Shown here: positions 5,811 through 64,000 of the stretch, in pieces
How positions within the stretch are numbered: the first letter of the stretch is position 1
Layout: every line of letters begins with the position of its first letter
From: Antrihabitans stalagmiti
Lineage (GTDB): Bacteria; Actinomycetota; Actinomycetes; Mycobacteriales; Mycobacteriaceae
DNA length: 64,000 nt
Reading direction: 5' to 3'
NCBI RefSeq assembly: GCF_016482825.1
Contig: NZ_JAEMNV010000001.1
Span: 558,001 to 622,000 of the forward strand
Made by a program: the position numbers and the translations under genes
Notes under the pieces: model-generated
The model's database searches: none
What the model was told of the DNA's origin: nothing
The model's input: the letters and a program-made list of their open reading frames with translations, nothing else

Positions 5811-7055
5811 CTAGCTCGACACCTTGTAGCCCATGATGTCGCGGATCAACGGACTCTCGTTCGTTCGCTGCCCGGTATCGACGTTGGGCGCGTACTCGGC
5901 CTTCGCCCCGGCGTCCAACAGTGCTTGTGTGTTGTCGTTGGAAATAATGCGCCCTTCCAGTTCGAACGAGTCGAATTCGAAGGGAAGTCCATTCGCTGCG
6001 AGCGGGTCGGGACCGTCCATTACGTGGAAATGCAAGTGCGGGGCGTCGGAGTTGCCGGTGTTGCAGAGCAACCCGATGACCTGCCCAGCTTTCAGGTCGT
6101 CACCGACCTTCACTTTCACCCCGTCCTTCTCTTGCAGGTGTGCGTAGAACGCGTAGTGGCCGTTGCCGATGTCCTGCACGACGTGGTTGCCGCCGTATTC
6201 GTCGATGCGCAACCCTGTCGCTCCGATACTCGGAGTCTGTTCTGGCAGATTGTTCACCACCGCAACAACTTTGCCGTCCGCGACGGCGTGCACGTTGGCG
6301 CCGAAGTATGCGTAGCTAGAGGTCTTCGTCTTGTCGCCCGTGTACAACAACCCGTCGTTGGTCAGCTGCACGTAGTCGATGGCGAATCGTTCGGCCACGA
6401 AGAGCTGGCCATTTATCGGATTAGCGGCGCCGCGGTGTCCGCCGACTTCGCAGCAGCTGTCGCCGTCGAGCCAATGGGCCCCGTCCAGCGGTGGCTTGAT
6501 CACGATCGGTTCGTTCTTGTCGACCTTCGTCGTCGCGACGTTCTCAACCAGCGTCTGGGGGATCAGGGGCGGGCTTGGTTCGGCGACTTCGATGTCGACG
6601 GCGTGCGAGATCGTGTCGGGCACATCGGCGCGAGTGTCAACCGTGGCGTCGATCCAGACCAGCGCCGACTGTCCCGGTCCCAGGACTGCCCCGGGTTCTT
6701 TCGCGCCGAGCACCTTCATCCACGGCAGGGTCAGCTTGTCCCCATAGAGATCGAAGAGTGTTCGGTCGCCCGCCGTCGCCTTGACCGACCGAATCGTCGT
6801 CGGCGACGTCAGGACGTTGGTCAACATCAGTTCGTAGGCCATGTGGATCTTCTTGTCGGTCGCCAGCACCGCGACCGGCGCGGCGATGACGGAGGCAATC
6901 ACTGGAGTAACGACGGCCGGAACCGAAGACGTGGACTCGGTGCTCGACTCGTCCGCCGACGAATCAGACGACGACGAGCACGCGGCCATCGGAACGCAGA
7001 TGGCCACAGCCACTGCCAATTTCGCAAAGCGACTCAGACGAATCAGGCGTTTCAT
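5811..7055 (-). CDS. M23-family peptidase-like lipoprotein
   Basis: The 414-residue product begins with a lipoprotein signal: basic MKRLIRLSRFAK, a hydrophobic core, and lipobox PMAAC followed by a Ser-rich linker. Residues ~230-380 carry an M23 (LytM-like) domain with an Asp in ERFAIDYV and the HxH ligand pair in HLHFHV. The preceding ~180 residues show no recognised domain. It is probably anchored on the outer face of the membrane and either cuts peptidoglycan or, if the first histidine ligand is lost, acts as an adaptor. It converges with the SMR gene. Confidence 0.82.
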   Translation of the reverse strand: MKRLIRLSRFAKLAVAVAICVPMAACSSSSDSSADESSTESTSSVPAVVTPVIASVIAAPVAVLATDKKIHMAYELMLTNVLTSPTTIRSVKATAGDRTLFDLYGDKLTLPWMKVLGAKEPGAVLGPGQSALVWIDATVDTRADVPDTISHAVDIEVAEPSPPLIPQTLVENVATTKVDKNEPIVIKPPLDGAHWLDGDSCCEVGGHRGAANPINGQLFVAERFAIDYVQLTNDGLLYTGDKTKTSSYAYFGANVHAVADGKVVAVVNNLPEQTPSIGATGLRIDEYGGNHVVQDIGNGHYAFYAHLQEKDGVKVKVGDDLKAGQVIGLLCNTGNSDAPHLHFHVMDGPDPLAANGLPFEFDSFELEGRIISNDNTQALLDAGAKAEYAPNVDTGQRTNESPLIRDIMGYKVSS

Positions 7056-7223
7056 CGGTCGATGCTAGCGCTGTCACGGCGGTGGCGGAGTGAATTGACT
7101 GGCGGTGAATTCCGCTCCCTCCGGATCGCGGATCAAAGCAGGTTCCGTCCAATCCATAAAGTCGAATGCGGACCCCCGCGCGCGCGAAGCACGGCTCGAA
7201 ATCCGCTGACATGGACACACACC

Positions 7224-7256
7224 GAGGCCGCCAAACCACCAGGGGTTGGCGGCCTC
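7224..7256 (-). terminator. Hairpin terminator after small secreted-protein gene
   Basis: A perfect 11-bp inverted repeat, GAGGCCGCCAA (7224-7234) and TTGGCGGCCTC (7246-7256), with an 11-nt loop. It lies 32 bp past the stop codon of the minus-strand secreted-protein gene and before the M23 gene. There is no T-run, as is usual for actinobacterial hairpin terminators. Confidence 0.6.
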
Positions 7257-7287
7257 AGCTGTTCATGCCGGTTGACCGGCGGATGAC

Positions 7288-7821
7288 CTAGTTGGCGCTG
7301 CCGCTACCGAACAGAGAACTCAGGTCGGGCAAAGATCCCGGTACCTGTCCAGTCGGACCAGCTGGGAACGTGAAGACGCGAGACGCCTCCTGCACTGTGA
7401 ACCCCGGCATCGGGAACTGCGCAAGAGTTGGTTCGATCCCCGGGTAGTCGGACACCCACATAGCGGGGTCGGTGTCGCTACGGGAGCAAGTGGCCAGCAC
7501 AACGTACGGGCCGTCGGGAATGTCGGCCACAGTCTGCCCAGTGACACCCGGCTGAATCTCGCCAGAGGAACCCAGCTGTTGACCGTTCCGCAGAACATCC
7601 TCGACTGGCGGCAGGACACCGCCGGGAGCCGGAGCCAACGCCGTCAAGCAGGTTAGTGCCGACCCGGAATTGTTCGTGATGGTGTTCGTCACCGACGACG
7701 CGTTCGCCGTGAAGACGTAACTGACGTCGGCCTGTCCAGCTGCGCCGGCGCTTCCTGGTAACCCGACAGCCAGTGGAATCGCAGCTGCAGTGACGAGCGC
7801 GGTACGAGCAATCAAACGCAT
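7288..7821 (-). CDS. Small secreted protein, paralogue of the 17.2-kb protein
   Basis: The 177-residue product has a clear signal peptide (cleavage near SAGAAG, residue ~28). The mature part begins with beta-rich sequence containing TNTITNNSGSALTC and later IPDGPYVVLATC, followed by a Trp. The same order of motifs (ANxVT, NNSGxxxxTC, PxGxY, C, W) occurs in the product at 17203-17649, so the two are paralogues of a small exported, probably one-disulfide family. The function is unknown. GGGAGGGA about 6 bp before the ATG supports the start. Confidence 0.8.
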   Translation of the reverse strand: MRLIARTALVTAAAIPLAVGLPGSAGAAGQADVSYVFTANASSVTNTITNNSGSALTCLTALAPAPGGVLPPVEDVLRNGQQLGSSGEIQPGVTGQTVADIPDGPYVVLATCSRSDTDPAMWVSDYPGIEPTLAQFPMPGFTVQEASRVFTFPAGPTGQVPGSLPDLSSLFGSGSAN

Positions 7822-7966
7822 AGAAGTCCCTCCCGTTAAGTCGGGGGCATCAGGACAAAGCTTCGAACCCCCTGCACCAATAGTGGCCGTTCACTGGTTG
7901 TTTCAAACAAGGATTGTCCAATTCGAATGTGATCGGCGTTAAAGACGCACTCCAGGAGCCTGGCTG

Positions 7967-56777: not shown

Positions 56778-57040
56778 TCAGCGGACCGTCGCCATCCAGG
56801 TGTGTGCGGCGGAGACGAGCGCGTGAACTCCCGTGCGCAACGTCGGTTCGAGGACCGGGGCAGCACTCCGACGACGCCGGTGCCGCCGATCCCGGTGTGC
56901 ACCTGGTAGCCCCACCCGGCCAGCATGGTTGCGACCAGATTCGCAGTGCGGGTCTCCTGGAACGCGAGCTCGGGGTGCGCGTGCAGATCCTCGTAGACGG
57001 CAATGAGGTCGACGTCGGACAGTTCGCGCCCGGAGGTCAT
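56778..57040 (-). pseudogene. M20 amidohydrolase with most of its middle deleted
   Basis: The frame from ATG 57040 encodes the N-terminal ~60 residues of an M20 amidohydrolase (LIAVYEDLHAHPELAFQETR, then GWGYQVHTGIGGTGVVGVL). At about 56850 the sequence jumps to another frame that gives APVLEPTLRTGVHALVSAAH-TWMATVR and a stop at 56778-56780, which reads like the family's C-terminus. About 1 kb in between, with all metal ligands, is missing. The start overlaps the stop of the SDR-hydrolase gene (ATGA), so the intact gene was the third member of that operon. Confidence 0.72.
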
Positions 57041-58857
57041 CGTTCGACCACCTCGCCGACGGATACCAGGCCACCGATCGTGGCGGCGAGGTCCGCCGGA
57101 TGACTGATCTGCGGATAGTGGCCGGCCCCGGCAATGGTGCTGACGCGGATCCGATCGTTCCTAGCAACCAGCTCGCTCAGCGCGGTCGAATCCAGCGGGT
57201 CGAGCTCGCCGACGACGAGGTGTACGTCGCCCTGGAAGCCGGCCAGCTTCTGACGCAGGTCGTGGCGGGTACTACGTCGACCGGCCGCCGCCAGTAGTCG
57301 TCCGATCCGGCGCGCGACCCCTGGCCGACGCAGATCGACGACGCTGGTCTCCAGTGTGGATGCGAAAGCATCGGATCCCAGCAGAGTGCGCGAGAGATTG
57401 TCGGGCGGGGCGAACCGCAGGTACGCAGCGGTCAGAAGCGCAAGTCGCTGTAGGCCTCCGGCCGGTCGTTGCAGGAACCCCGGCGCGATCAGGGTCAGCC
57501 GCTGCACCTGTCCGGGGTGGGTCGAGGCGAATTCGACGGCGACTGCCGCGCCGATCGAGTGACCCACGAGATGCAGGCCTTCCCGGCCGCCCGCCACATC
57601 GGCCATCCAGCGGGACCAGACGCCCGGGTCCCCGGAGCTCATCCCGAGCCCCGGAAGGTCGAGCACCCGGGTCGCCTCGGGCAGCTCCGCGGCGACACCA
57701 ACCCAGGTGTCGGCGTTGACTGGGACAGCAGGGAGCACGACGGTGTGCGCGGCCGGGTCGCCGATACCGAAGGTGCGAATCCCGGCGTACGAAGTGAAAC
57801 CGCGAGCCGCGTCGCCGGCCGGGCTCTCGCCGAAGCGATGGGCGGCTATGTGATCGGCCCACCGCTGAATCGCCGGCAGGGTCGCCGGGACCTGGAGCCC
57901 GTGTCGGCGGGCGAGCTCCTGCGCCGACGCGGTGGGATAGCGCTCGGTGGACATGAAACTCAGGGTCTCCGGATCGGCCTTGGTCACAGCGCTCGGCAGC
58001 CGCTTGATCATGCCGACTGGGATCCGCAACCGCGGAACCGCGACCTCGTAGTGTCGACCGACAGCGGTGAGCAGATCCGGCAGTCCGGGTGTCTCGTCGT
58101 CGAGCACCCAGTAGGACTGGTCGGCTGCCTCGGGCAGCGTTGGAACGAGCGCCATGAACCGAGCGAGGTAGTCGACCGTCACCACCGGTACGAAGACACG
58201 CGCGTTTCCGGGTAGCGCGGCGAGCTTCCCCTGCCACAGGTCCCGGACGCTCGCTGCCAAACCGGCTTGATTGTCTGCCTCACCCGTGGTGCTCACGCCT
58301 ATGACGGTCGCCGGATTCACGATGGTGAACGGGACGCCGAGCCTTGCCGCCGTCTCCTGGACCACGGCGTCGGCTTCGATCTTCGACGCCTCGTAAGCAC
58401 CGAGCCTCGCGTAATCGTCAGTGCGGTCACGACTACGTTCGGTGGTCGGATCTTGGCCACCGACCCGGTAGCCGGACACGTGCACCAACCGCGGCGAATC
58501 AGGAAGCCGTGACGCAAGTCCGACAATGCGTTGCGCACTGATGACGTTGGCGCGGCGGGCCTCGTCGGCCGTCATCCCGAATCTGAAGGCACCCGCGAGG
58601 TTGTATATCTCGGTGACTCCCTCTAGCGCAGACGTGCCGCTGGGGAGACCGAGGTCTTCACTGTCGAAGTCGACGACTGCCGACACGACACCAGCGGTGA
58701 CGGTGTGGCGGTCCAACCATGCCTCGAGGGTCCGGGCCGAGTCGACGCTGCGGACGGCGGCCGTCACCGCGACGCCCTGGGAAACAAGCTCAACGATCAG
58801 CCACCGGCCGAGGAACCCGGTCGCGCCGAGGACGAGGGCATGTCGAGGCGCGCTCAT
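57037..58857 (-). CDS. SDR/epimerase - alpha/beta-hydrolase fusion protein
   Basis: A 606-residue two-domain protein. Residues ~1-330 are an extended SDR: VLGATGFLGRWLIVELVSQG, EIYNLAGAFRF, VHVSGYRVGG, and active-site YEASKIEAD. Residues ~370-606 are an alpha/beta hydrolase with nucleophile elbow VGHSIGAAVAVEFA, acid region GELDPLD and His in AGAGHYPQI. The fusion suggests sequential reduction and hydrolysis of one substrate. It is coupled by ATGA both to the TetR gene before it and to the M20 remnant after it. Confidence 0.87.
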   Translation of the reverse strand: MSAPRHALVLGATGFLGRWLIVELVSQGVAVTAAVRSVDSARTLEAWLDRHTVTAGVVSAVVDFDSEDLGLPSGTSALEGVTEIYNLAGAFRFGMTADEARRANVISAQRIVGLASRLPDSPRLVHVSGYRVGGQDPTTERSRDRTDDYARLGAYEASKIEADAVVQETAARLGVPFTIVNPATVIGVSTTGEADNQAGLAASVRDLWQGKLAALPGNARVFVPVVTVDYLARFMALVPTLPEAADQSYWVLDDETPGLPDLLTAVGRHYEVAVPRLRIPVGMIKRLPSAVTKADPETLSFMSTERYPTASAQELARRHGLQVPATLPAIQRWADHIAAHRFGESPAGDAARGFTSYAGIRTFGIGDPAAHTVVLPAVPVNADTWVGVAAELPEATRVLDLPGLGMSSGDPGVWSRWMADVAGGREGLHLVGHSIGAAVAVEFASTHPGQVQRLTLIAPGFLQRPAGGLQRLALLTAAYLRFAPPDNLSRTLLGSDAFASTLETSVVDLRRPGVARRIGRLLAAAGRRSTRHDLRQKLAGFQGDVHLVVGELDPLDSTALSELVARNDRIRVSTIAGAGHYPQISHPADLAATIGGLVSVGEVVER

Positions 58858-59468
58858 GCTTCTGCACTCGTCCGGTCGGCAGGAAGATCCAGCAGCGTGC
58901 GCAGGGTAACCGCTGCGTCGCGCAACGGCTGTACGTCACGCCTGGCCCTCGACACGATCATCGCGCCCTCGACGAGACTGACGACCGCCGACGCGGTCGC
59001 TCGGGCCACAGACGCTCCGTGGCCCCGCGCCATCAGGAACTCGGTGACCGGGACGATCCAGCTCTCGTACGCCTGCTCGCAGGCACTGCGCAGCCGCTCG
59101 CTCTCCGCGCCCATCTCCAGGGTGACTACCGATACCGGGCAGCCGACCCGGAAGTCGCTGCCTTCGAGCAGCTGCGCCAGCGACGCGGTCACGGACTCGA
59201 CAATCTCGCCGGCACTCTCGCCCGGTCCTGCAGAACCCAGAGCGCCGCGAATCATGTCCTCGAACTGGGTCCCAGCGAGGACGACGGCCTGTTCGCCGAG
59301 CTGCTCCTTTCCCTGAGGGAAGTGGAAGTACAACGAGCCCTTCGGTGCACCCGAGTGTGCAATCACGTTGTTGAGGCCGGTTCCGCTGTAGCCATGTACC
59401 TGGACCAGTTCGAGCATTGCCTCGACGATCCGCTGCTGGGTAGCAGCTCCTTTGAGCTTTGGGTTCAT
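58854..59468 (-). CDS. TetR-family regulator
   Basis: A 204-residue TetR protein: HTH in SGTGLNNVIAHSGAPKGSLY with FHFPQGKEQLGEQAV, a subgroup (YxaF/LmrA-like, C-terminal VGCPVSVVTLEMGAESERL) that often controls drug or quinone detoxification. ATG 59468 is chosen because ATAGACCAGTCTAT, a palindromic operator, lies 10 bp upstream. Its stop overlaps the fusion-protein start by ATGA, so it is the first gene of the operon and autoregulated. Confidence 0.9.
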   Translation of the reverse strand: MNPKLKGAATQQRIVEAMLELVQVHGYSGTGLNNVIAHSGAPKGSLYFHFPQGKEQLGEQAVVLAGTQFEDMIRGALGSAGPGESAGEIVESVTASLAQLLEGSDFRVGCPVSVVTLEMGAESERLRSACEQAYESWIVPVTEFLMARGHGASVARATASAVVSLVEGAMIVSRARRDVQPLRDAAVTLRTLLDLPADRTSAEA

Positions 59469-59477
59469 AAGGCAATA

Positions 59478-59491
59478 ATAGACCAGTCTAT
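59478..59491. promoter_or_regulatory. TetR auto-operator candidate
   Basis: ATAGAC-CA-GTCTAT is a 14-bp palindrome ten bases before the TetR ATG, with AT-rich flanks (TATATATT). The core resembles the TAGACnnGTCTA operators recognised by the LmrA/YxaF subgroup of TetR regulators. Confidence 0.75.
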
Positions 59492-59548
59492 ATATTCTGG
59501 CAACGACGGTTCGGGTCGACTCGCACACAGGTAGCCGACGTGAAAGGG

Positions 59549-59570
59549 GATGTCAGCCGGATGTGAGTGG
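59549..59570 (+). promoter_or_regulatory. SARP-type direct repeat before acyl-CoA-dehydrogenase gene
   Basis: GATGTCAGCCG and GATGTGAGTGG are adjacent 11-bp direct repeats. SARP regulators bind heptamer direct repeats at 11-bp (or 22-bp) spacing just upstream of -10. The second ATGTGAG starts at 59561, exactly 30 bp before the ATG at 59591, as also seen at 63762/63792. Confidence 0.72.
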
Positions 59571-59590
59571 CAATCGCGAAAGTTGCCGAC

Positions 59591-60766
59591 ATGACCAACA
59601 CATTGAGCAGTACCCGAACCAACCACACCCTCGACATCGGCATGCTCGAGCGTTTCCGCGCTCGTGCCGGTGAACTCGATCGGACCAATACGTACTTCCA
59701 CGAAGATCTCGCCGACCTCCGCACAGTCGACTACCTGGCAGCGGTGGTACCGACGCACCACGGTGGCTGGGGACTGACACTGGGCGACCTGGCGCAGTCG
59801 CAACGCAGGCTGGCGCGGTACGCCCCGGCGACGGCCTTGGCCACGACGATGCACTTCTACTGGACCGGTCTTGCCGCGGAGTTGGAGCGATTCGGCGACA
59901 GATCGCTCGTGTGGATCCTGCAGGCCGCGGCCTCCGGAGAGATCTTCGCAGCCGGACACGCAGAGTCGGGCAACGACGTTCCGGTTGTTCTGTCGACCTG
60001 CGTGGCGGAGCGCGTCGACGGCGGCTATCGCCTCACGGGACGAAAGCAGTTCGGATCCAATGGTCCGGTATGGAATTGGCTCGGTGCTCACGCGATGACA
60101 TCCGACGGGCAGATCGTGCATGCATTCGTCGATAGGCGGTCGGACGGGGTGACGGTAGTGGAGAACTGGGACACCCTCGGCATGCGACCGAGTCAGAGCC
60201 ACGACACCGTGCTCGACGACGTCTACGTCCCTGATTCACGTATCGGTCGGGTCCTACCTGCCGGCGACGACACCGACCTGTTCTACGTCGCAATGAACAT
60301 GTGGGCCCTACCGGTTATCGCGAACGTCTACCTCGGAATCGCAGAGCGCGCAATGGAACTCGCGATCGCATCGGCACAAGGCAAGTCCTCCATCGCAATC
60401 GAACGCAGTGCATACGCCTACAACCCCATGGTCCAGCACCAGGTCGCGCAGATGTATTTGGAACTCGACGCGGCGGTCGCGACCGCTGATCGGTTCGTCG
60501 ACGACTGGATGGCAGGAGCCGATCACGGCGCACAGTGGGGACCCAAACTGCTGTCGATGAAGTGGCGTTCGGTCGAGGCGGCGAAAAGGGTCGTCGACAT
60601 CGCACTCGATGTCACGGGTGGCGCAGGGATGTTCCGCGGACGCGAACTGGAGCGGTTGTACCGCGACGTTCGTTGCGGCGGTTTCCATCCCGGAAACGAT
60701 GCGCTCACACACGAAATGGTGGGCAAGGCCGCGCTCGGTATCGCAGGACAAACGCCACGGTGGTAG
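59591..60766 (+). CDS. Acyl-CoA dehydrogenase-like flavoprotein
   Basis: A 391-residue protein of the acyl-CoA-dehydrogenase fold: ALATTMHFYWTGLAAELERF in the N-domain, flavin-contact GYRLTGRKQFGSNG, and the C-terminal GGAGMFRGRELERLYRDVR. In place of the usual catalytic glutamate before the C-terminal helix nothing obvious is seen, so it could belong to the flavin monooxygenase branch (DszC/HsaA-like). ATG 59591 matches the conserved 30-bp distance from the repeat motif. The AfsR/SARP gene is convergent, and this gene is its probable target. Confidence 0.82.
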   Translation: MTNTLSSTRTNHTLDIGMLERFRARAGELDRTNTYFHEDLADLRTVDYLAAVVPTHHGGWGLTLGDLAQSQRRLARYAPATALATTMHFYWTGLAAELERFGDRSLVWILQAAASGEIFAAGHAESGNDVPVVLSTCVAERVDGGYRLTGRKQFGSNGPVWNWLGAHAMTSDGQIVHAFVDRRSDGVTVVENWDTLGMRPSQSHDTVLDDVYVPDSRIGRVLPAGDDTDLFYVAMNMWALPVIANVYLGIAERAMELAIASAQGKSSIAIERSAYAYNPMVQHQVAQMYLELDAAVATADRFVDDWMAGADHGAQWGPKLLSMKWRSVEAAKRVVDIALDVTGGAGMFRGRELERLYRDVRCGGFHPGNDALTHEMVGKAALGIAGQTPRW

Positions 60767-60767
60767 G

Positions 60768-63686
60768 TCAGACCTGTCTGTGGTCGAAGGCCGACAACGC
60801 CCTTGCCGCGGCGGCGTTGTCGTCCAGCCTGCCACCCTCTGCCAAAGCTGCGGTGTACATGTCGGTTCCGAGGATCCTTCGTAACTCGTCGGCAAGCTCG
60901 CGCAGGCGACGGTCGTCTTCGCCATAGATGTCGTGCCCACCGGCCGACGACGTCACCGCACCGAGGAGCACGGCGGCGGCGCGGGTGAGGCCCAGCCGCG
61001 CAAGCAATTCGGCGACGGATCTCAAGGTCGTCCACTGCAGCGATCTGACACCTGCTCGACGCCAATGCGGCAACAGCCAGCGGTACAACTCGACCGCTGA
61101 CTCGGCGTCACCATGACGGGTTTCCAGAGACGCCGCCGTAGACCCAGCGATGCCGAGCACGAACGACGAACCGCAACGCCGGGCAAGGTCCATCGCGCGC
61201 GCTAGCCGGACGGCAGCGGTGGCCGGGTCGGTATCCAAAACCGATTCGCCTGCAACGTAGTTGATCCACGCCGCACGCAGTATCGGGGTTCGTTCGTTCG
61301 TCGAACGCAGCATCTCGGTGGCGAGTTCCGGTGCAGCTTCGTCACCGCGGTAACCCCGCGCGAGGAGCACGACGCCTTCGCGTTCGGCTCGGCGAAACGC
61401 GTCGTCGTCTCCCACCGCAGACCCGTTGGGGGCAAACGGTTTATCGATCGCGTCGTCCAGGCGACCATGGACAAGCGCCTGGAGGGTCAACAGAGCTGCG
61501 GTGTAGTACCCCATCGAGCTGATCGCCGAACGTGACGACAGCTCTTTCGAACGCGTCACCAGGGTGTCCATCAACTCGAGATCACCACGCTTCCAGGCGC
61601 CGACAGCACCGATCGCGAAAGCTTCCGCAACGCGCGGATCGGTCGAGCAGGCAGCGTCAGCTCGTTCGGCCGCCGACTGCGCCCAGCCGAAAACTTCGGG
61701 TCGCATTCTGTACAGCCCGTAGTCGTGCAGGTCCAGCGACGCGTCGAGCAACTCGTCGAAAAGGTCACGTCCGAGCAGGTGCGCGAACGCATTTCGCATG
61801 TCTGCGAGCGCCACGTCCATGTCGTCGAGCACACCGACGACGTCCGGCATTCGCAAGCGACGATTCGACTCGGCAACGAAACGAATCATAAAACGTGCAT
61901 GGTTATGCAGTACCGCATCCGTCGCTCCACGACTCTGCAACCGCACAGCGCCGAAGTCGCGCAACGATTCGAGCATCAGATATCTCGTGCCGCTGCGCTG
62001 CAGCAACGATCGCTCGACAAGACTGCTGAGAATGTCGGTCGCGTCGGCAACCGAGCACTCGACCACGGCGGCCGCGCCCGCCGCAGGAAACGGACCGTGA
62101 AACACGGAGACGGCCTCGAACAACCTTCGTTCGTCGTCATCGAGAAGTGAGTACGACCATTCGATCGCCGCGCCGAGTGAACTGTGCCTGCCGACCGTTC
62201 GCCTGCCGCGCGTCAACATACGCAGCCGATCGTCCAGACCGTCGGCGATCTCATCGAGTGTCAGGGTATGCAGACGTGCGGCAGCCAGCTCGATCGCCAA
62301 CGGCAGGCCGTCGAGTCGGCGGCATACCGTTGCGATTACGGCTCGTTCTGCTTCGGAGGGTTCCCACCGTGGCAGCACTGCGTCGGCCCGATCTGTAAAC
62401 AGCTGCACCGCAGGCTGATCCGCTGCGTACATCGACGGCAGCGGTAGGGGCGGGACCGGACACAGATGTTCGCCGTCGATTCTCAGGCGTTCACGACTTG
62501 TCACCAGAACTGTCACGCCGGGGGCGCGGTGGACGACCGTTTCGGCCAACGCGGCAGCCTCGTCCAGCACGTGCTCGCAGTTGTCGAGCACCAGCAGCGT
62601 TTTCTGGTGTTGCAGCACCTCGGCGATACGCTGCACCGGATCGGCACCGCTACGCGGCTCGATATCGAGCACAACCGCGACGGTGAGCGCAACGGTGTCG
62701 CTATTCGCCTGCGCGAGCGCGCAGAACCAGACTCCGTCGGGGAAACGTGGCGCAATTCGACGGCACACCTCGCTGGCCAGGCGCGTTTTGCCGACGCCTC
62801 CGGTTCCCAGCACCGTGACTATGCGGTGGTCGGTCAACAATCTGTCCAGGTTCGCTACGAGGTCTTCGCGGCCGACGAAGGTGTTGTCGTGCCGACCGAA
62901 CCCAACAAGCCGACCTTGATTTTCCTGTGGGGCAACCTCTTCTGCGAGATCGGCCGTTGATGCGGTCAGCATCGAATCGTGCAGTCGTGCGATCTGCGGC
63001 GACGGATCTATCCCAAGTTCCTCACCGAGCCTGCGGCGATAGCGGTCGTACACGGCAAGTGCGTCGGCGTTTCGACCCTCCCGATGCAGAGCGGTCATCA
63101 GGTGCCCCTGTGGTCGCTCCCGTAGCGGGTGCCGTGCCGCGAAAGCATCGAGATCAGCAAGCACGTCGCGATGCCTGCCTGCCGCCAACAGCAGGTCGAA
63201 CTTCACCTCGCTTGCCCTGTTCCGTATCTCGATCAGTCGTTCGGCTTCGATGGCTGCGTCGGCCACGTCGCCCAGTTCCTCGTAGGGCCTCCCTCGCCAC
63301 AACACCTCCGCGCCGTCGAGGATCGTCAGCGCTGCAGTGCCGTCCCGATCAGTTGCGGCGCGAGTGACTGCTGTCTCGAAGACCCGAGCGTCGAGTGCCG
63401 CGGCGTCGACGCTCAACCGGTAGCCCGACGCTGTTCGCTCGATGTCGACGGCAGGCAGCGATCGCCTGAGCCGAAACATGTGGGTATGCAGTGCAGCATG
63501 GTGGTCGGCCGGAAGCTTTGTCGGCCAGAGCGCCTCACAGAGTGCGTCGGCCGAAACGATGGCGTTGGCGTGCAGTACGAGCATCGCGAGCAAACGGCGC
63601 TGCAGGGTGCCTTTCGGTGCGCGGTCGACAGAGTCGATGCTGACCTGCACCGGCCCGAGCACACCGATCACCAGATTCGAAGCCAT
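60768..63686 (-). CDS. AfsR/SARP-family regulator (BTAD-NB-ARC-TPR)
   Basis: A 972-residue regulator. Residues 1-95 form an OmpR-type winged helix (LGPVQVSIDSVDRAPKG; VSADALCEALWP), ~100-245 the BTAD domain (HPLRERPQGHLMTALHREGR, NADALAVYDRYRRRLGEELG), ~265-560 an NB-ARC ATPase (Walker A VLGTGGVGKTRLASEV, Walker B KTLLVLDNCEHVLD), and the rest helical repeats. Such proteins activate specialised-metabolite genes by binding direct repeats. Its start faces the PIG-L gene across 105 bp containing the repeat motif. Confidence 0.93.
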   Translation of the reverse strand: MASNLVIGVLGPVQVSIDSVDRAPKGTLQRRLLAMLVLHANAIVSADALCEALWPTKLPADHHAALHTHMFRLRRSLPAVDIERTASGYRLSVDAAALDARVFETAVTRAATDRDGTAALTILDGAEVLWRGRPYEELGDVADAAIEAERLIEIRNRASEVKFDLLLAAGRHRDVLADLDAFAARHPLRERPQGHLMTALHREGRNADALAVYDRYRRRLGEELGIDPSPQIARLHDSMLTASTADLAEEVAPQENQGRLVGFGRHDNTFVGREDLVANLDRLLTDHRIVTVLGTGGVGKTRLASEVCRRIAPRFPDGVWFCALAQANSDTVALTVAVVLDIEPRSGADPVQRIAEVLQHQKTLLVLDNCEHVLDEAAALAETVVHRAPGVTVLVTSRERLRIDGEHLCPVPPLPLPSMYAADQPAVQLFTDRADAVLPRWEPSEAERAVIATVCRRLDGLPLAIELAAARLHTLTLDEIADGLDDRLRMLTRGRRTVGRHSSLGAAIEWSYSLLDDDERRLFEAVSVFHGPFPAAGAAAVVECSVADATDILSSLVERSLLQRSGTRYLMLESLRDFGAVRLQSRGATDAVLHNHARFMIRFVAESNRRLRMPDVVGVLDDMDVALADMRNAFAHLLGRDLFDELLDASLDLHDYGLYRMRPEVFGWAQSAAERADAACSTDPRVAEAFAIGAVGAWKRGDLELMDTLVTRSKELSSRSAISSMGYYTAALLTLQALVHGRLDDAIDKPFAPNGSAVGDDDAFRRAEREGVVLLARGYRGDEAAPELATEMLRSTNERTPILRAAWINYVAGESVLDTDPATAAVRLARAMDLARRCGSSFVLGIAGSTAASLETRHGDAESAVELYRWLLPHWRRAGVRSLQWTTLRSVAELLARLGLTRAAAVLLGAVTSSAGGHDIYGEDDRRLRELADELRRILGTDMYTAALAEGGRLDDNAAAARALSAFDHRQV

Positions 63687-63740
63687 CGTCTTCTACCGCC
63701 GAATCGTCACAAAGTGCGCAAATCGTAGCTCACCTGGCAT

Positions 63741-63768
63741 ATGTGAGCCGATGGAAGTTGGATGTGAG
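63741..63768 (+). promoter_or_regulatory. SARP-type direct repeats before the PIG-L gene
   Basis: ATGTGAG (63741-63747), ATGGAAG (63751-63757) and ATGTGAG (63762-63768) form a run with 10- and 11-bp spacing. The last copy lies 30 bp before the ATG at 63792, the same distance as in front of the gene at 59591. The adjacent AfsR/SARP protein is the likely binder, and the site could also affect its own promoter. Confidence 0.72.
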
Positions 63769-63791
63769 TACCTACCGACACGATTGCTGAC

Positions 63792-64000
63792 ATGACCACT
63801 TCCTTGCAGAACCATTCCGCACGCAACCTGGTTGCCCGACTCGGCGACATCGTCACCATCTGGGCACACCCCGACGACGAGTCGTATCTAGCCGGCGGCC
63901 TGATGGCGCTTGCCGCTGCCACCGGCGCGAAGGTGACCTGCGTGATCGCTACCGCGGGTGAACTCAACGCACCTGCCGAAGATCGAGCGGCGCTCGGCCG
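63792..64000 (+). CDS. PIG-L family deacetylase, 3' end outside window
   Basis: Only the first 69 codons are inside the window. They contain the family signature: VTIWAHPDDESYLAGG holds the AHPDDE zinc motif of the PIG-L/MshB N-deacetylases, followed by TCVIATAGELNAP. Such enzymes deacetylate amino-sugar conjugates, including intermediates of mycothiol and of glycosylated antibiotics. Divergent from the AfsR/SARP regulator with a shared direct-repeat element. Confidence 0.88.
   Translation, partial: MTTSLQNHSARNLVARLGDIVTIWAHPDDESYLAGGLMALAAATGAKVTCVIATAGELNAPAEDRAALG

Follow-up and report, generated by a model that had tools for sequence, protein, structure and literature searches.

A candidate SARP-type operator array at two enzyme genes flanking an AfsR-type regulator in Antrihabitans stalagmiti

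AfsR/SARP systems and the Antrihabitans locus

Published SARP sites consist of direct repeats 11 or 22 bp apart, with the 3' repeat 8 bp from the -10 element, as set out in PMC10936776. That paper also describes AfsR, whose downstream repeat spans -29 to -19, whose residues T88 and R92 contact bases, and whose inhibition by its NOD/TPR part is relieved on ATP binding; the -10 element of afsS is CACTGT. PMC10972967 gives the afs box as CGTTYATCG, and describes three heptamer repeats at the sites of DnrI, ActII-ORF4, VlmI and FdmR1 and a 10-bp unit at a secondary site of PimR. Control of the AfsR/SARP type is already known; the regulon proposed below would itself be new. The open-access library searched contained no paper joining SARP, PIG-L and acyl-CoA dehydrogenase, and none joining BTAD, PIG-L and Nocardia, or SARP and 'PIG-L family deacetylase'.

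We analysed a stretch of 64,000 nucleotides from Antrihabitans stalagmiti (the window) and the sequence past its end. Four genes stand in the order TetR (-), acyl-CoA-dehydrogenase-like (ACAD-like, +), AfsR-type regulator (-) and PIG-L (+) (Table 1). A palindrome, ATAGAC-CA-GTCTAT, lies at 59478-59491 beside the ACAD promoter, just upstream of the likely ATG of the TetR gene; it occurs once in the window and is probably TetR's own operator. Positions 57037-58857 encode a male-sterility/thioester-reductase-like NAD(P)-binding domain fused to an alpha/beta hydrolase.

Table 1. Genes and candidate operators of the locus (window coordinates unless stated)
Feature	Position	Strand	Remarks
TetR gene	58854-59528, as longest frame	-	LmrA/YxaF-like C-terminal domain
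SARP-type operator/promoter of ACAD-like gene, candidate	59541-59583	+	Sequence, genome-wide rarity
Acyl-CoA-dehydrogenase-fold flavoenzyme (ACAD-like), monooxygenase/nitrososynthase-like	59591-60766	+	391 aa
AfsR-type large SARP regulator: winged helix + BTAD + NB-ARC	60768-63686	-	972 aa; Pfam, NCBIfam, PDB
SARP-type operator/promoter of PIG-L gene, candidate	63742-63784	+	Sequence, genome-wide rarity
PIG-L (LmbE) deacetylase	63792-64529 (L001:5792-6529), beyond window end at 64000	+	245 aa

The regulator begins with a Trans_reg_C domain (Pfam, 5e-07, residues 29-79) followed by BTAD (9.9e-33, 98-239), and carries the large-SARP extension, an NB-ARC domain (5.7e-11, 282-476). It resembles AfsR of Streptomyces coelicolor in being a large SARP with BTAD and NB-ARC parts, and its relatives in the PDB are AfsR (8k60/8jke) and EmbR (2fez). 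With 190.7 bits against a curated cut-off of 1430 for the AfsR ortholog model (NCBIfam NF053617), it is AfsR-like, not AfsR. In the alignment, the positions of AfsR T88 and R92 are T and R in the window regulator. The T88 position is N or S in the regulators of the relatives described below, so this contact is not invariant.

Arrays at the two promoters

The preliminary description had reported ATGTGAG at 59561 and 63762, each 30 bp 5' of an ATG (59591 and 63792), with further copies upstream, shared bases around the start codons and an AfsR-type regulator gene flanked by the two promoters. All of this can be seen in the sequence. The bases around the ATG read TTGCCGACATGACCA at one promoter and TTGCTGACATGACCA at the other, and at both the half-sites are spaced by steps of 10 and then 11 bp. 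The ACAD promoter has half-sites TGAAAG (59541), TGTCAG (59551) and TGTGAG (59562), then a -10-like hexamer GAAAGT (59578-59583) that ends 7 bp before the ATG; the PIG-L promoter has TGTGAG (63742), TGGAAG (63752) and TGTGAG (63763), then CACGAT (63779-63784), also 7 bp before its ATG. The common layout is TGNNAG, 10-bp step, TGNNAG, 11-bp step, TGNNAG, 10 bp, [GC]ANNNT, 7 bp, ATG. The constant 10 bp between the last half-site and the [GC]ANNNT hexamer is a feature absent from the preliminary description.

These arrays have the geometry of SARP sites, that is, direct repeats spaced by about 11 bp, overlapping the -35 region and at a fixed distance from the -10, with one step of 10 bp. Taking the A of the ATG as +1, the last half-site occupies -29 to -24, within the range given for the downstream repeat of AfsR in PMC10936776. 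Judged by that paper, the arrays are like the afsS promoter in having 11-bp direct repeats overlapping the -35 region at the same place relative to the start, and a weak -10 that begins with C or G. They differ from AfsR/afsS in having three half-sites with a first step of 10 bp, and their half-sites, TGNNAG, are unlike the afs box quoted above from PMC10972967. That paper also provides parallels for a threefold repeat (DnrI, ActII-ORF4, VlmI, FdmR1) and for the 10-bp unit (PimR); those regulators control antibiotic gene clusters, whereas the window arrays stand at two single genes. The system also departs from AfsR in its predicted targets, which are two metabolic genes in place of afsS and are apparently leaderless, and only a local regulon was found.

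The search of the genome for the repeat motif that the preliminary description had called for showed that it does not occur at random rates, both exact sites being the two in the window. In the 6,393,340-base genome, GGATGTGAGT-N14-TTGCYGACATGACC with at most 3 mismatches had two matches, at the two window sites, and the reversed control had none. The broader pattern TGNNAG-N5-TGTGAG-N11-ANNNT-N7-ATG with at most 2 mismatches had four matches genome-wide (two exact, the window promoters, and two weaker) against three for its reversed control. At the strictness of these two patterns, no further sites beyond control level were found in this genome. The self-repeat score was reached by 1/300 shuffles of the ACAD region and 0/300 of the PIG-L region. 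Chance repeats were rejected on this genome-wide rarity together with the multi-locus consensus scan and the lag test described below.

We also considered whether the two promoters are alike through a recent promoter duplication that has no regulatory meaning. They have 24 specified bases in common, including TTGCYGACATGACC, and the PIG-L gene is placed differently from the PIG-L of its relatives, both of which would suit such an event. However, the sequence between the conserved elements differs between the two promoters, and in relatives the geometry at both genes is the same although the letters are different. We regard this explanation as very improbable, and a duplication may in any case be compatible with promoters that still function.

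The reading we prefer, and hold to be very probable, is that each 43-bp array is a predicted site of binding by the SARP regulator whose gene lies between the two, and that this regulator would switch the two enzyme genes together. The likely mechanism, modelled on AfsR, would have two or three SARP domains side by side on half-sites one helical turn apart, the downstream domains overlapping the -35 region and the spacer. The bound SARP could then retain both sigma region 4 and RNA polymerase at the weak [GC]ANNNT -10 element; because this is proposed for both promoters, the ACAD-like and PIG-L genes would be switched on together. The NB-ARC and C-terminal part presumably gates activation, with ATP or some other cue as the signal.

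The gene trio and its arrays in other actinobacteria

Relatives of the regulator at E <= 1e-150 were present in 6/251 family genomes, including the source genome itself, and each of the other five has all three genes together. In those five, PIG-L and ACAD are divergent around one short intergenic region common to both, unlike the window, and the flanks of the trio differ between three groups of genomes. Identity to the window proteins is 70-73% for ACAD, 40-44% for the regulator and about 38-43% for PIG-L. A scan with one genome per species gave 19 loci, several from the same genomes as the first five, and ACAD and SARP are both present in 13 of these. A divergent PIG-L adjoins ACAD in 8/19 (L025, L026, L027, L028, L030, L031, L037 and L039), the L034 locus ends in an apparent PIG-L start (read by eye), L035 has its PIG-L in a separate operon, and L029, L032, L033 and L036 have no PIG-L in the locus. 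The five loci L038 and L040-L043 hold distant ACAD proteins, at most 43% identical, without SARP or PIG-L. Hosts include Rhodococcus ruber, R. aetherivorans, several Nocardia, a second Antrihabitans, Desertimonas flava, Frankia nepalensis and metagenome bins. The spread is patchy, with ACAD at E <= 1e-110 in 9/401 family and 4/394 class genomes, the source genome counted in each.

In the regulator tree, the window's regulator groups with 12 other ACAD-linked regulators (support 100/99), and that of L036 falls outside. The window PIG-L lies outside the clade of trio PIG-Ls (98/96), and its gene sits at a different place from that of the relatives. This may reflect replacement or fast divergence, which are not distinguishable because the branch is long.

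With some exceptions, an array in the same register precedes the matching genes beside related regulators in Rhodococcus, Nocardia, the second Antrihabitans, Desertimonas and metagenome-assembled genomes. Searching 35 promoters for the best self-repeating array under a -10 condition, with half-site letters left free, gave 22 in which it lies 6 or 7 bp upstream of an in-frame start; of these, three (Nariz ACAD, L034 ACAD from a metagenome-assembled genome, and G193 PIG-L) were weak, their scores being reached by 29-30/300 shuffles. The PIG-L promoters of Nocardia shimofusensis and N. arizonensis have two half-sites in register by eye that the program did not rank first; the repeat at the Frankia PIG-L, 12 bp upstream of a start, is dissimilar, and L036 ACAD has a different repeat, GGCAAG, 33 bp before its start (0/300 shuffles). 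No convincing array was found directly at L035 ACAD, at L035 PIG-L or at the PIG-L of L046, L047, L049, L050 and L051. As a control, 28 starts among 462 gene calls of the same loci scored at least 12 at the fixed place; 23 were ACAD or PIG-L starts (some loci twice), and of the remaining five, 3 fell within SARP frames and 2 at other places. When each ATG of either strand was scored at the fixed place, 33/12,293 reached this value. The SARP frames of L029 and L033 (minus strand, from about 12171 and 11993) carry TGTGGA repeats 11 bp apart with TAGGCT, scoring 14/18, and these might be due to chance or to the regulator controlling its own gene.

A lag test on 24 promoters, picked mostly for an array already seen and including close species that are not independent, gave z 5.7 at lag 11 and z 8.0 at lag 21 (10 + 11), with none of 500 dinucleotide shuffles as high at either; the signal at lag 10 was less marked (z 2.5, 7/500). 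The consensus YGNNAG-n4/5-YGNNAG-n5-YGNNAG-n10-SANNNT, derived from some promoters later counted, was matched exactly at 21 places, and with one mismatch at 6 more, in 534,862 bases from 30 sources, against 0 exact and 3 one-mismatch for the reversed pattern; the window's two sites are counted again in L001, leaving 19 distinct exact matches. Each of the 27 matches either precedes an ACAD, PIG-L or methyltransferase gene or heads an operon that leads to one. At no more than one mismatch, an array stands directly before ACAD in 10 of the 13 named ACAD + SARP loci. Only two clear half-sites are present at L031 and L030 PIG-L and in Nocardia L067. At L035:5640-5740, two divergent arrays with half-sites TGCAAG/TGCGAG/CGCGAG head operons, one before a methyltransferase leading to PIG-L and the other before an alpha/beta hydrolase-like gene (by eye) upstream of ACAD.

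ACAD family and class searches added six loci, of which L057, L064 and L066 are repeats of, or near-identical to, known loci. The new Nocardia-like locus L067 has its half-sites in register at both genes, the PIG-L promoter departing from the three-site pattern by 2 mismatches and the ACAD promoter by more. L058 and L059 (ACAD 50-51%, no SARP within 1.5 kb) have no array at up to 2 mismatches. The letters of the half-sites vary between loci and the geometry is constant, most clearly in L036 with GGCAAG, whose regulator is outside the main clade. An attempt to predict these letters from recognition-helix residues gave no rule, as they vary among N-bearing relatives too.

Eight further PIG-L homologues served as natural controls, and in four (L044, L045, L048, L051) the stretch analysed contains a SARP. 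Three of these have an array upstream of PIG-L: L045 (reached by 6/300 shuffles), L048 (12/300) and L044 (weak, 29/300), the last two with a leader of 31-32 bp. L051 does not fit, having SARP and PIG-L and no array at up to one mismatch. The four without a SARP match (L046, L047, L049 and L050, two pairs of near relatives) are without an array. A second recurring unit, SARP + PIG-L + Rv2258c-like winged-helix methyltransferase, is found in L045, L048 and L051, and by eye in L044. In L044 and L048 the methyltransferase has an array of its own beside the SARP. Since arrays are found also where PIG-L and SARP are paired with a methyltransferase, the predicted switch is reused with different enzyme partners.

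The repeats could instead be sites of a different regulator, for instance PhoP-like or TetR, beside a coincidental SARP. In Streptomyces, the afsS region bound by AfsR is also a target of PhoP (PMC10972967), and here the ACAD promoter has a TetR gene and a palindrome next to it on its other flank. Yet none of 33 related stretches contains a relative of the TetR protein (tblastn, E <= 1e-5). Frankia nepalensis L037 has an ACAD array and both enzymes with no SARP in its 17-kb locus and no such array at PIG-L, which favours another regulator; against this, the presence of an array at the control PIG-L loci follows that of a SARP (L044, L045 and L048 as opposed to L046, L047, L049 and L050), and half-site letters shift between loci, as in L036, while the geometry stays. 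Moreover, no exact or one-mismatch match to the consensus lies elsewhere in the 535 kb of neighbourhood. We therefore consider a different regulator quite improbable.

The proposal of the preliminary description that SARP-type boxes unite the three genes in a common regulon was strongly supported by this comparison of genomes. Common regulation of the three genes as one SARP regulon appears well supported because the same arrangement recurs in scattered other actinobacteria. What was observed is the sequence and how rare it is in the genome, a register that holds from genus to genus, and linkage to the regulator; from these we infer binding and activation. The last half-site of the window arrays falls within the AfsR range, and most trio loci keep the 6-7-bp distance to the start; from this we infer that the transcripts of both genes are leaderless, with their first base at the A of the ATG or beside it.

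The enzyme pair and the neighbouring genes

The PIG-L protein (PF02585, 4.9e-29) has zinc-ligand motifs AHPDDE and, downstream, GFTGHPDH. It shares the PIG-L fold and zinc motif with MshB, the mycothiol GlcNAc-Ins deacetylase, and with BshB. It scores 69 bits to MshB and 78 to BshB2, where the NCBIfam cut-offs are much higher (224 and 195), and is therefore neither.

KijD3, DnmZ and the Micromonospora nitrososynthase are flavin N-oxygenases of TDP-amino sugars. By profile, the best solved relatives of the ACAD-like protein are 5gj7/5z8t, followed by these three, ahead of true acyl-CoA dehydrogenases. The predicted fold (AlphaFold pLDDT 83; Foldseek) gave the same families in its first five ranks; from rank 6 come true acyl-CoA dehydrogenases, with similar E-values and equal or higher TM-scores. 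The protein thus ranks closest, by sequence profile and modelled fold, to flavin monooxygenases and amino-sugar nitrososynthases. Identity to KijD3, DnmZ and the nitrososynthase is 26-29%, with TM-scores no better than those of the true dehydrogenases, and the trio has no TDP-sugar gene. At what we take to be the position of the MCAD catalytic Glu (YEGT), placed by eye in the alignment, the window protein has HPGN and 0/16 aligned rows have Glu. In the stretch presumed to hold the alternative IVD catalytic Glu, also placed by eye with the column not fixed by structure, neither FYVAMNMWALPVIANVY nor 15/16 rows have a Glu, the distant L040 being the one that does. The protein therefore appears to be without the canonical catalytic glutamates. 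An ordinary acyl-CoA dehydrogenase is disfavoured by the ranking and the missing MCAD-position Glu.

The two enzymes probably have the same substrate pathway, centred on one small metabolite that bears an amine or amide. That an amino sugar is first deacetylated and then N-oxygenated would be a reasonable guess and no more, as true dehydrogenases match the fold equally and the IVD-position picture was placed by eye. The deacetylated aminosugar product suggested in the preliminary description found no support in the genome comparison, and is compatible with the intact zinc motif of PIG-L and the kinship to nitrososynthases.

The locus had also been suggested to be the edge of a specialised-metabolite cluster, and the sequence past base 64000 does contain biosynthetic-type genes (glycosyltransferases, acyltransferases and an ABC transporter). 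A glycolipid-type set occupies L001:6532-19230 (window about 64532-77230), with two weakly wax-ester-synthase-like proteins, two GT28-type and one GT2 glycosyltransferase, an ABC-2 exporter, two condensation-domain acyltransferases and, by eye, a third. A further GT28-type gene lies at L015:9618-10901, and a P450, by eye, at L015:8140-9477. The trio might belong to this glycosyltransferase/acyltransferase cluster, with the regulator controlling all of it, and PIG-L does directly adjoin the cluster, whose next gene runs from 6532 to 7887. However, L001 and L015 contain no array at up to one mismatch apart from those at the ACAD and PIG-L promoters, and when 14 proteins of the region were compared with 20-kb stretches from five other genomes (L010-L014), only ACAD, SARP and PIG-L recurred. 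Since the glycolipid-type genes have no array and do not recur beside the trio, the cluster-edge suggestion was not borne out; a regulon extending to the downstream glycosyltransferase genes was rejected on the same findings, and control of the whole cluster is improbable.

For the trio itself, it is conceivable, if unlikely, that it forms a portable SARP-switched mini-pathway in which PIG-L frees the amine of a compound such as an N-acylated amino sugar and the flavoenzyme N-oxygenates it to a nitroso- or oxime-type signal or antibiotic-like molecule. If true, SARP control of stand-alone two-gene units would be a general way to build small metabolite islands. With arrays this short and rare, placed directly at the start codon, the regulon and its chemistry both lend themselves to direct test. 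The arrays offer a candidate SARP operator code with an exact register, readable in several genera outside Streptomyces and tied to a recurring, patchily spread enzyme pair. Further small units driven by a SARP, of a kind that cluster-mining software may miss, could be picked out with this code.
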